20,072 bases of DNA, taken from the IMG/VR virus record IMGVR_UViG_3300025889_001235, positions 1 through 20,072 of that record, one strand, 5' to 3'. Under the pieces are notes generated by a model, which searched no databases, was not told the origin of the DNA, and worked only from the letters and a program-made list of their open reading frames with translations. The DNA comes from a virus. Positions 841 to 19,013 of the stretch are shown one piece after another. How positions within the stretch are numbered: the first letter of the stretch is position 1; each line of letters begins with the position of its first letter. The translations under genes were made by a program, and so were the position numbers.

Positions 841-855
841 GAGTAAGATACGTAT

Positions 856-1355
856 ACTAGCACCCCGTCGTTATATATCGGTGCTTTCTGGCACATGGCT
901 TACACATACCATGATGAGAATGTTTTCGATCAGGATGGCAATTCGCCATCCGCCCATCTATCACGACACGTTGAGATTTCCAGATATTTAATAATTCATT
1001 GAACTTAAGTTTTCGCCTCGATCCCATTAGAGGATACAATGTCATCATCCACCCAGCAGCTTTCGACCCCATTGCAGCGCACTGCCATGTTTGAAGTTTT
1101 GATTGTCCATATGGTCCGTGAGGTCCCCAAATTTTTACACCTAGCAACTCAGCAGCTCGCGCAACTATATCTCTATCGCTCATTTGAAGTGCAAGACTGA
1201 TAGAACCCTTGTACGCACTTCCCGCATTCCGCCACATCCGAAATGTGCCTTCTCCCTCTAGTAAACCTGCGAGCCATGCGATGTTTTTGATACCAATACT
1301 CATCGCAATCATCCTCGTCGCTGAAGTCCATAAATTCCAGATGATCGCCATGTAT
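856..1355 (-). mobile_element. Putative 500-bp homing endonuclease insertion in the exonuclease gene
   Basis: Both edges carry the same four bases, ATAC on the minus strand (1352-1355 and 852-855). Removing exactly 500 bases between them joins a GTG start with a strong AGGAG site to the conserved exonuclease N-terminus in frame, giving V/M-E-I-R-I-L-L-L-D-I-E-T-A-P. The segment is almost filled by the LAGLIDADG gene (857-1303). I infer that it is a homing element inserted at codon 3 or 4 of the exonuclease. Whether the RNA is spliced is unknown: only about 50 bases lie outside the endonuclease gene, too few for a free-standing group I ribozyme core. The short repeat could be coincidence. Confidence 0.5.
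857..1303 (-). CDS. LAGLIDADG-type homing endonuclease, 148 aa
   Basis: This is a single-motif LAGLIDADG endonuclease, which would act as a dimer and cut a specific DNA site to spread its own gene. The motif is WLAGLLEGEGTF at residues 10-21, with the acidic catalytic residue in the EGEG part. A second conserved stretch, MSDRDIVARAAELLG, is typical of the family. The C-terminus (CHPDRKHSHHGMCKPC) is a small Cys/His cluster seen in other phage homing endonucleases and likely binds zinc. I chose the ATG at 1303 because GAGG lies nine bases upstream; the ATG at 1312 has that site directly abutting it, and the one at 1351 has no well-placed site. The stop is one base before the ATA of the exonuclease frame. 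It could be free-standing or intron-borne. Confidence 0.82.
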   Translation of the reverse strand: MSIGIKNIAWLAGLLEGEGTFRMWRNAGSAYKGSISLALQMSDRDIVARAAELLGVKIWGPHGPYGQSKLQTWQCAAMGSKAAGWMMTLYPLMGSRRKLKFNELLNIWKSQRVVIDGRMANCHPDRKHSHHGMCKPCARKHRYITTGC

Positions 1356-1373
1356 TTCCACTGGCGTTCTCCT
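1353..1373 (-). promoter_or_regulatory. Strong ribosome site and GTG start, probable detached start of the exonuclease
   Basis: AGGAG (1369-1373), seven bases, then GTG GAA ATA (1353-1361). The frame stays open for 62 codons to 1173, but after about 24 codons (an acidic MDFSDEDDCDEYWY stretch) it runs antiphase through the endonuclease coding region and is probably not selected. Joining GTG GAA ATA to the exonuclease codons at 852 restores the family N-terminus. The alternative is an independent small acidic protein truncated by the insert. Confidence 0.5.
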
Positions 1374-17154: not shown

Positions 17155-17414
17155 TTCAAGATACCATGAAGTTTGATTATTGTCAACAGGTGCAATATGC
17201 GCCAATTCTGAAAAATGTACTGGTGAATTCTGCGACATGTCTGTTTCTTGCGTTTTCAAGTACTTCGGTCATTTTATTGAATTTGTCTCTTTTTTGCGAC
17301 GTTCCAGAATGCGCCACTCTGGCATCTGGCCATGCAATTTGGCGTAGGGTTGGGACTGGTATATGGCTTGCAATACAGCCATGTAGCAATTGGCAATCAA
17401 CTAAGGGGGATAAA

Positions 17415-18281
17415 ATGAATGTGTATGAAATCATAACTGAGAGAATACTCAAGCAGATGGAGCAAGGCTCTATTCCCTGGCGTAAACCCTGGAAGAGTGC
17501 GCTAGGTGAAGAGCCTGCTAACTTAGTCTCGAAGCAAGGATACAAAGGAATAAACCGTTTCTTGTTAGGCTCATTACCGTTTGAGCGGCCCTATTATGTA
17601 ACTTATAAGCAAGCCTCAGAACTGGGTGGTAATGTGAAAAAAGGCGAACATGGGTGCCCAGTGATATTCTGGAAGCGTTCTCAGTATACCAAAGCGCACA
17701 GCGACGGAACGGAAACGGAAGAAACAGGGTTTATTCTCCGCTATTACACGGTCTTCAATATTGAACAATGCGAGGGACTAACGGACAAGCTCGCGCCATT
17801 GCCTGAGAATCCTACTCAGCCTTTCAATGCTATCGACTCTGCTGAACGTATTGTGCGGGGATATCGTTCGGCTCCGTCTCTGGTTCACAAAGCCGGCGAT
17901 CGAGCCTGCTATTCCCCCTCTCATGATACCGTGACCATGCCAGAGAAGAGTCAATTCTGCTCCGAAGTGGAATACTACTCTACGCTGTTTCATGAATTCA
18001 CGCATTCAACGGGACATGAAACGCGCCTGAACCGGAAAACATTGACTGAATTATCCTACTTTGGAGATCAAAACTATTCACGCGAAGAGTTAGTGGCTGA
18101 AATGGGTGCTGCTTTTTTGTGCGGGCACGCCAATATTGAGAACGAGGCGGCATTGAAAAATTCAGCGGCATACCTAGATGGATGGAGGAAGAGACTCCGG
18201 ACTGATAGTAGGGCCGTTATCCTTGCGGCCGGGCAAGCGCAGAAGGCGGCGAATTATATCTTAGGGGCAAGGGAGGAATAG
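17415..18281 (+). CDS. ardC: ArdC-like antirestriction protein (ssDNA-binding domain plus zincin), 288 aa
   Basis: ArdC-type proteins combine an N-terminal ssDNA-binding ArdcN (DUF1738) domain with a zinc-metallopeptidase-like domain; plasmid ArdC protects incoming DNA from restriction. Here residues 3-130 give the N-terminal pattern (EIITERILKQMEQGSIPWRKPW, GYKGINRFLLG, YVTYKQASELGGNVKKGEHG). Residues about 185-201 carry FHEFTHSTGH, with HEFTH at 193-197 as zinc site and SREELVAEM at 222-230 holding the likely third ligand. I chose the ATG at 17415, 249 bases inside the longer frame, because GGGGG lies five bases upstream and the protein begins as the family does. It is the first early gene, as expected for a protein needed upon DNA entry. 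Confidence 0.88.
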   Translation: MNVYEIITERILKQMEQGSIPWRKPWKSALGEEPANLVSKQGYKGINRFLLGSLPFERPYYVTYKQASELGGNVKKGEHGCPVIFWKRSQYTKAHSDGTETEETGFILRYYTVFNIEQCEGLTDKLAPLPENPTQPFNAIDSAERIVRGYRSAPSLVHKAGDRACYSPSHDTVTMPEKSQFCSEVEYYSTLFHEFTHSTGHETRLNRKTLTELSYFGDQNYSREELVAEMGAAFLCGHANIENEAALKNSAAYLDGWRKRLRTDSRAVILAAGQAQKAANYILGAREE

Positions 18282-18284
18282 ATT

Positions 18285-19013
18285 ATGACAACATATAACT
18301 TACTATCCGAAGACAGTTCGAATGCAAAACTAGCAAAGAGTGCCCTGGTAGACGGAGGCCGCTACTACTCCGTTATCCTTTACCTTGCTCCGTCGCGAAT
18401 GAACCGGAGAGGGGTGGAGTTGTGCATTGGCGCGACCGAGGAATGCCGAAAGGCCTGTCTCTATACAGCCGGACGTGGGGCCTTTTCCAATGTTCAGGAT
18501 GCTAGAATGCGGCGCGCGAACTTGTTTGTCGAAGACAAGGTGGAATTCCTCCGCCTGTTACGTGAAGACATCACGAAAGCAGCGGACTCTGCAATGAAGC
18601 AGGGCAAGGAGCTTGTTGTGCGACTAGATGGGACGTCCGATGCCGTTGCGAAAGAATGCTACGACCTTATGCGGGAGTTTCCGCTGGTCCAATTTATGGA
18701 TTACACGAAAGACCTGTTTAAGTTCGCGCAATTTATGACAGGCAAGCTTCCGAAGAACTACACGGTAGCCTTGAGCTTTACGCCCGAAAATCAACCCTAC
18801 GCTATCCATGGGCTCGAACATGGAGCGAGGGTCTCCGTGGTCTTTCAGGGCGAACTACCGGAAACATGGCACGGTTTTCCGGTGGTCGACGGAGATAAAC
18901 ACGACCTGATATTCCTGCAACCTATGGGCTCAGTGCTCGGCCTCAAGGCGAAAGGAAAAGCTCGAGCCATGGCATCGGGCGGATTCATTCAGATAGGTAA
19001 GGGAGGGAACTAA
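18285..19013 (+). CDS. GP88-family phage protein with Cys cluster, 242 aa
   Basis: This resembles the phage GP88 family, of unknown function. The key region is LYLAPSRMNRRGVELCIGA and EECRKACLYTAGRGAF with cysteines at 47, 54 and 58, then NVQDARMRRANLFVEDKVEFLRLLREDI. Cysteines close together in this pattern suggest metal or Fe-S binding. Later VVRLDGTSDAVAKE, MDYTKDLFKFA and ALSFTPENQ form alternating strand-helix elements like a TIM-barrel; a link to radical-SAM-type chemistry is speculation. The gene begins three bases after the ArdC stop, behind GGGAGGAA, so the two are cotranslated and likely work together early in infection. Confidence 0.75.
   Translation: MTTYNLLSEDSSNAKLAKSALVDGGRYYSVILYLAPSRMNRRGVELCIGATEECRKACLYTAGRGAFSNVQDARMRRANLFVEDKVEFLRLLREDITKAADSAMKQGKELVVRLDGTSDAVAKECYDLMREFPLVQFMDYTKDLFKFAQFMTGKLPKNYTVALSFTPENQPYAIHGLEHGARVSVVFQGELPETWHGFPVVDGDKHDLIFLQPMGSVLGLKAKGKARAMASGGFIQIGKGGN

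Follow-up and report, generated by a model that had tools for sequence, protein, structure and literature searches.

The sequence analyzed here, referred to as the window, is a virus record of 20,072 bases that carries head, connector and terminase genes. At positions 118-1782 on the minus strand, a replication-type exonuclease stands last in a series of small structural and lysis-like genes. At 17166-19013 on the plus strand, an ArdC-like anti-restriction protein (ArdcN + MPTase-PolyVal) is followed by a GP88-family gene, with the structural genes on the opposite strand.

The exonuclease is a DnaQ-like protein of the phrog_403 family (DNA polymerase exonuclease subunit; phrog_403, E = 1.8e-78; RNase_H_2, E = 1.2e-16). 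Its conserved part runs on the minus strand from R1 of the RILLLDIETAP motif to the last codon (852-121), an intact open reading frame of 244 codons that ends at a stop codon at 120-118, retains the DIE motif and represents a full-length family member. A preliminary description of this DNA had stated that the conserved N-terminus lacks a usable start, and the codons between the previous in-frame stop and R1 (CGA CGG GGT GCT AGT ATA) indeed include no ATG, GTG or TTG. The first canonical start codon in the gene is TTG 840, at residue 5, which would retain the DIE motif. We propose that the exonuclease starts instead at the ATA immediately before R1 (853-855, minus strand). At the proper spacing from this codon is a Shine-Dalgarno (SD)-like site, GGGGTG (861-866, minus strand), located inside the last codons of the preceding endonuclease gene. 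Its duplex with the 16S 3' end was calculated at -8.7 kcal/mol, a value as low as that of only 4% of random sites and stronger than the median of the relatives' canonical exonuclease starts (-5.4 kcal/mol). RNA folding around the ATA did not differ from that of shuffled sequences. In E. coli, initiation at AUA is very inefficient.

To place this codon within its family, we gathered related exonuclease loci from viral contigs, obtaining 134 distinct loci among the matches listed, so that the counts given here describe samples. In 113 of these 134 loci, the codon directly preceding the conserved K/R-I-L-L-L-D-I-E-T was canonical (ATG, 81; GTG, 17; TTG, 15), and most of the remaining relatives had such a codon within a short distance upstream, a few codons away. 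In the family alignment, the ATA of the window occupies exactly the normal start position. All conserved exonuclease residues lie downstream of the endonuclease gene, and conserved protein sequence was thus found on only one side of the supposed insert. Because the relatives begin at the position of the ATA, the window exonuclease, as judged from the alignment, has its whole N-terminus with nothing missing, and it needs no start farther upstream. The proposal that an insert had split the gene near its start is therefore not upheld, and neither is the alternative of a destroyed start, given that the start position is conserved at the ATA and the gene is complete.

The closest exonucleases among the matches listed were those of two contigs, L171 (58%) and L155 (56%), both with an adjoining upstream endonuclease gene, and a search of genome contigs for the exonuclease returned remote matches only. 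We also sought a close relative of the window free of the endonuclease. The terminase and portal relatives of the phage gave no match to the exonuclease, its lysis-side genes led to no comparable locus, and DNA searches found no near-identical relative in the collections searched; no close endonuclease-free relative was found by any of these three routes.

The gene upstream of the exonuclease is on the same strand and carries the motif WLAGLLEGEG. The long open reading frame (1351-857) matched phrog_5046 (E = 1e-14) from residue 22, and the family profile matched the structures of the LAGLIDADG proteins I-AniI and I-OnuI in the PDB (E values of 3e-7 to 1e-6). In Pfam, the window protein itself had no match, and its relatives gave weak matches to LAGLIDADG_1/_3. 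A search with the single protein as query found nothing, and an alignment-based search gave at least 184 homologues. PHROGs and some RefSeq records list the family as "HNH endonuclease", but the structure matches are to LAGLIDADG proteins, and other depositors use the name LAGLIDADG. The C-terminus of the protein contains a Cys/His-rich segment, CHPDRKHSHHGMCKPC. Homologues align only from about residue 17-22 of the long frame, and the SD site is better at ATG 1303 (-8.7 kcal/mol) than at ATG 1351 (-3.3 kcal/mol); the gene therefore probably extends from ATG 1303 to TAG 857 (857-1303, minus strand). The N-terminal extension MAIIWNLWTSATRMIA (1304-1351, minus strand), which does not align to homologues and has the weak SD site, is probably untranslated. 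With these observations, the insert boundary that had been proposed upstream was not confirmed. The stop codon, TAG 859-857, ends one base ahead of the ATA at 855-853, as the preliminary description had noted together with the LAGLIDADG identity of the gene. With its own frame and stop, a complete exonuclease downstream and no intron match, this is a separate gene. By motif, kinship and organization, it can be assigned to the free-standing LAGLIDADG homing endonucleases, and its product would be expected to cleave DNA.

We then examined how often the exonuclease lacks a canonical start. Only 3 of 135 loci (window included) had no canonical codon at the conserved position or in frame upstream: ATA in the window and, in two only distantly related loci, ACG (L157) and ATC (L250). 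A further locus, L068, was flagged at first owing to a one-residue alignment offset and has a real ATG. In L157, a LAGLIDADG gene (2007-2369) is followed by an exonuclease with ACG for a start (2354-2356) behind AGGAGG. In L250 (2095-2500), an endonuclease VII gene is followed by an exonuclease with ATC, with AAGGAG upstream; the next canonical start lies only at residue 19, past the DIE motif, and a relative with 74% DNA identity has ATG at the start position. The SD duplexes of the window, L157 and L250 were -8.7, -11.8 and -8.5 kcal/mol, values equalled or surpassed by 4%, 0.6% and 4.8% of random sites, respectively. Across the loci, 12,272 available changes would create a stop as against 791 that would destroy a start, and no more than two early stops were found. 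Since random error or decay predicts far more stops than start losses, ATA, ACG and ATC are probably working near-cognate starts at these three loci.

An endonuclease gene precedes all three non-canonical exonucleases, LAGLIDADG in the window and L157 and endonuclease VII in L250. With a grouping chosen post hoc, the window picked as odd, and a small sample of related loci, non-canonical starts occurred in 3 of about 11 loci with a LAGLIDADG or endonuclease VII neighbour as against 0 of 124 others (Fisher p = 4e-4; p = 0.005 without the window); for a LAGLIDADG neighbour alone, the figures were 2 of 7 against 1 of 128 (p = 0.007), or 1 of 6 against 1 of 128 without the window (p = 0.09). Endonuclease VII, often an ordinary phage gene, also precedes a phrog_403-type exonuclease in Pseudomonas putida phages. 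We regard the link between a non-canonical start and an upstream endonuclease gene as a lead.

Based on these observations, we consider it likely that a free-standing LAGLIDADG gene (about 1303-857) abuts an intact, unspliced exonuclease that initiates at AUA 855-853 under the guidance of GGGGTG. Ribosomes translating the endonuclease would terminate at UAG 859-857, GGGGTG at 866-861 would hold or recruit a 30S subunit, and initiation would then occur at the AUA, probably aided by termination one base upstream. The yield of exonuclease would be expected to be low. The preliminary description had itself listed a switch of the start to ATA or TTG among its options; the ATA half of that suggestion agrees with the family start position and the SD site.

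The same pair of genes recurs elsewhere. Members of the endonuclease family were located directly upstream of the exonuclease in at least six other contigs; L152, L155, L157, L171 and L182 were found by the endonuclease-alignment search, and the sixth, L066, separately. In five of the six, the exonuclease start is canonical. In a quick tree, judged by its well-supported branches, two or more changes were needed for the exonuclease-adjacent endonucleases, and because the pair recurs and the tree needs these changes, the exonuclease start appears to be an endonuclease location that is used repeatedly or has been kept for long.

Two of these contigs provide information on how such an arrangement may arise. 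In L157, the endonuclease gene opens behind AGGAGG with TTG AAA ATA CTC CTG CTG GAC ATC GCG TGG, which encodes (L)KILLLDI, the N-terminus of the exonuclease, fused to AWLAGLLEGEG. In L066, a LAGLIDADG gene (2130-2501) takes the place of other small genes present in its endonuclease-free relatives L062, L063 and L067; the DNA similarity to all three resumes at the exonuclease start codon, and the first 33 nucleotides of the endonuclease gene are identical at 25 of 33 positions to the exonuclease start of L067. When a matrix built from 113 exonuclease starts was applied to the 5' ends of 77 endonuclease genes, L157 ranked first (24.3 bits) and L066 second (21.4 bits), and the window scored 0.67 bits. 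In L157 and L066, the endonuclease gene, as its opening codons read, uses a copy of the exonuclease start, with a complete exonuclease downstream. This raises the possibility, which we put forward tentatively and hold to be distinctly less probable than its converse, that the first codons of the exonuclease are a recurrent landing place for endonuclease genes, which usurp the ribosome-binding site and start of the exonuclease, so that its own synthesis has to begin at AUA, ACG or AUC by means of a site within or close to the 3' end of the endonuclease gene.

In the window itself, the preliminary description had correctly placed a start about 500 bp upstream: AGGAG (1373-1369) and GTG (1361-1359), a pair on the minus strand (1359-1373) with an SD energy of -7.4 kcal/mol. 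It opens a 62-codon acidic frame (1361-1173, minus strand; VEIHGDHLEFMDFSDEDDCDE...) with a good SD, which overlaps the endonuclease gene in a different frame and for which no relatives were found; a separate small gene at 1361 was accordingly rejected, having no relative in phages and codon scores that pointed neither way. Deletion of the 500 bp between ATAC 1355-1352 and ATAC 855-852 does yield GTG-GAA-ATA-CGT in frame, as had been claimed, but the join is no better than chance. The real sequence holds two strong-SD starts that a 4-bp repeat can join in frame, one 509 bp and the other 724 bp from R1, and at least one equivalent join turned up in 30% of dinucleotide shuffles (16% within 520 bp). 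We rejected an ATAC-mediated 500-bp insert, given the equivalent join at 724 bp and those in 30% of the shuffles. The joined product, M-E-I-R-I-L-L-L-D, would also exceed the usual protein by two residues. As an exonuclease-like start, GTG GAA ATA C ranked 19th among 1,193 start codons over 10 nt and 267th over 15 nt, a weak resemblance to the family start.

It is nonetheless conceivable that the endonuclease gene invaded the exonuclease just past an original start at GTG 1361 (GTG GAA ATA C), so that the SD site and this start stayed behind upstream and the exonuclease was reduced to the ATA as a makeshift start. This reading concerns origin and is compatible with initiation at the ATA. It draws on the same event as read in the KILLLDI codons of L157 and the 25/33 match of L066 to L067, and on the good SD at GTG 1361. 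Against it, the remnant amounts to about 10 nt and scores 0.67 bits rather than 24.3 or 21.4, it lies out of the endonuclease frame, and equivalent joins arise by chance. We consider this origin rather unlikely for the window; the earlier suggestion of an invasion at the 5' end of the exonuclease finds its counterpart in L157 and L066 as a general idea, and no relic of it was demonstrable in the window.

We regard as about equally improbable that the ATA arose through an error in sequencing or assembly, or belongs to a mutated minority allele, and that the real start is ATG, in which case an ordinary free-standing endonuclease gene would sit beside an ordinary gene. ATA is one base from ATG, the layout of stop, one base, start and SD would then be ordinary, and the window genome is represented by one record only; because no near-identical relative was found, this contig may carry an error of one base at 853 or reflect a mixed population there. 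However, good SD sites accompany near-cognate codons at the corresponding position in two loci sampled from different metagenomes, and the internal stops observed are far fewer than errors would yield.

Initiation at TTG 840 (MDIETAP...), the other half of the suggested start switch, makes use of the first canonical codon in frame and keeps D-I-E. We consider it very unlikely, since its SD energy is only -1.4 kcal/mol, it would lose RILL, the conserved first strand, and no comparable downstream start exists in L250.

The least credible reading is a compact self-splicing intron, removed at 857-1353 so that GTG GAA is joined to ATA CGT: the joined frame is open, and some group I introns have ORFs that overlap the core, but the Rfam intron scan, carried to E <= 5 for the window and to gathering score for seven related loci, found no group I or group II catalytic core, the conserved LAGLIDADG frame occupies 447 of about 497 nt and thus nearly all of the supposed insert, and relatives with the same gene pair start normally, which makes splicing unnecessary. 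An intein was rejected because the LAGLIDADG gene is read in a frame other than that of GTG 1361 and other than that of the exonuclease. A frameshift fusion of endonuclease and exonuclease was also rejected, as the coordinates would require opposite shifts in the window (+1) and L157 (-1), so that there is no common frameshift signal.

The arrangement that we favour, with the exonuclease read from the AUA behind a free-standing endonuclease gene, has partial parallels in known systems. The free-standing seg and mob endonuclease genes of T4 often overlap their neighbours tightly, and translational coupling has been suggested for them (PMC2988022). Like these, the window gene is a promoterless endonuclease ORF between conserved phage genes (PMC2988022); unlike these GIY-YIG or HNH genes, it is of the LAGLIDADG type and abuts the start of the downstream gene, and that gene has a near-cognate start. 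As with mobE in nrdA of Aeh1 and mobA in gene 60 of T4, the endonuclease gene is associated with a gene of replication or nucleotide metabolism, whereas there the insertion divides the coding region between two polypeptides (PMC2988022) and the window exonuclease is one complete ORF. LAGLIDADG genes of Arthrobacter, Curtobacterium and Microbacterium phages belong to the same phrog_5046 family, are likewise free-standing and share the overlap with the preceding gene. In contrast to the window gene, they sit downstream of other genes rather than upstream of a DnaQ-like exonuclease; in Curtobacterium phage Ashes, for example, the phrog_5046 gene lies downstream of a Cas4-like exonuclease. With respect to the start codon, infC in bacteria begins with AUU. 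Streptomyces sigR begins with GTC (PMC5472188). Like infC and sigR, the window exonuclease is an intact gene whose start is outside ATG, GTG and TTG, and in those genes initiation is weak or regulated. In contrast to them, ATA, ACG and ATC recur within one phage gene family behind endonuclease genes, and are known here from sequence.

The window thus contains a known kind of element with what may be an unusual translational consequence; the six further contigs with the gene pair and the start copies of L157 and L066 are new. Use of the near-cognate starts would mean that a mobile endonuclease has reshaped how a phage replication gene is translated while leaving that gene unsplit, and coupling would perhaps let a very weak start codon survive. 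If endonuclease genes do take over the 5' end of the exonuclease, its output would be throttled by, or dependent on, translation of a selfish gene, and the altered start might also guard against re-cleavage. Gene finders limited to ATG, GTG and TTG would miss or truncate such genes; in L250, the exonuclease would be left without its active-site motif. The start of a conserved exonuclease is recorded here as a recurrent location of endonuclease genes, and these loci provide natural test cases for initiation at AUA, ACG and AUC.
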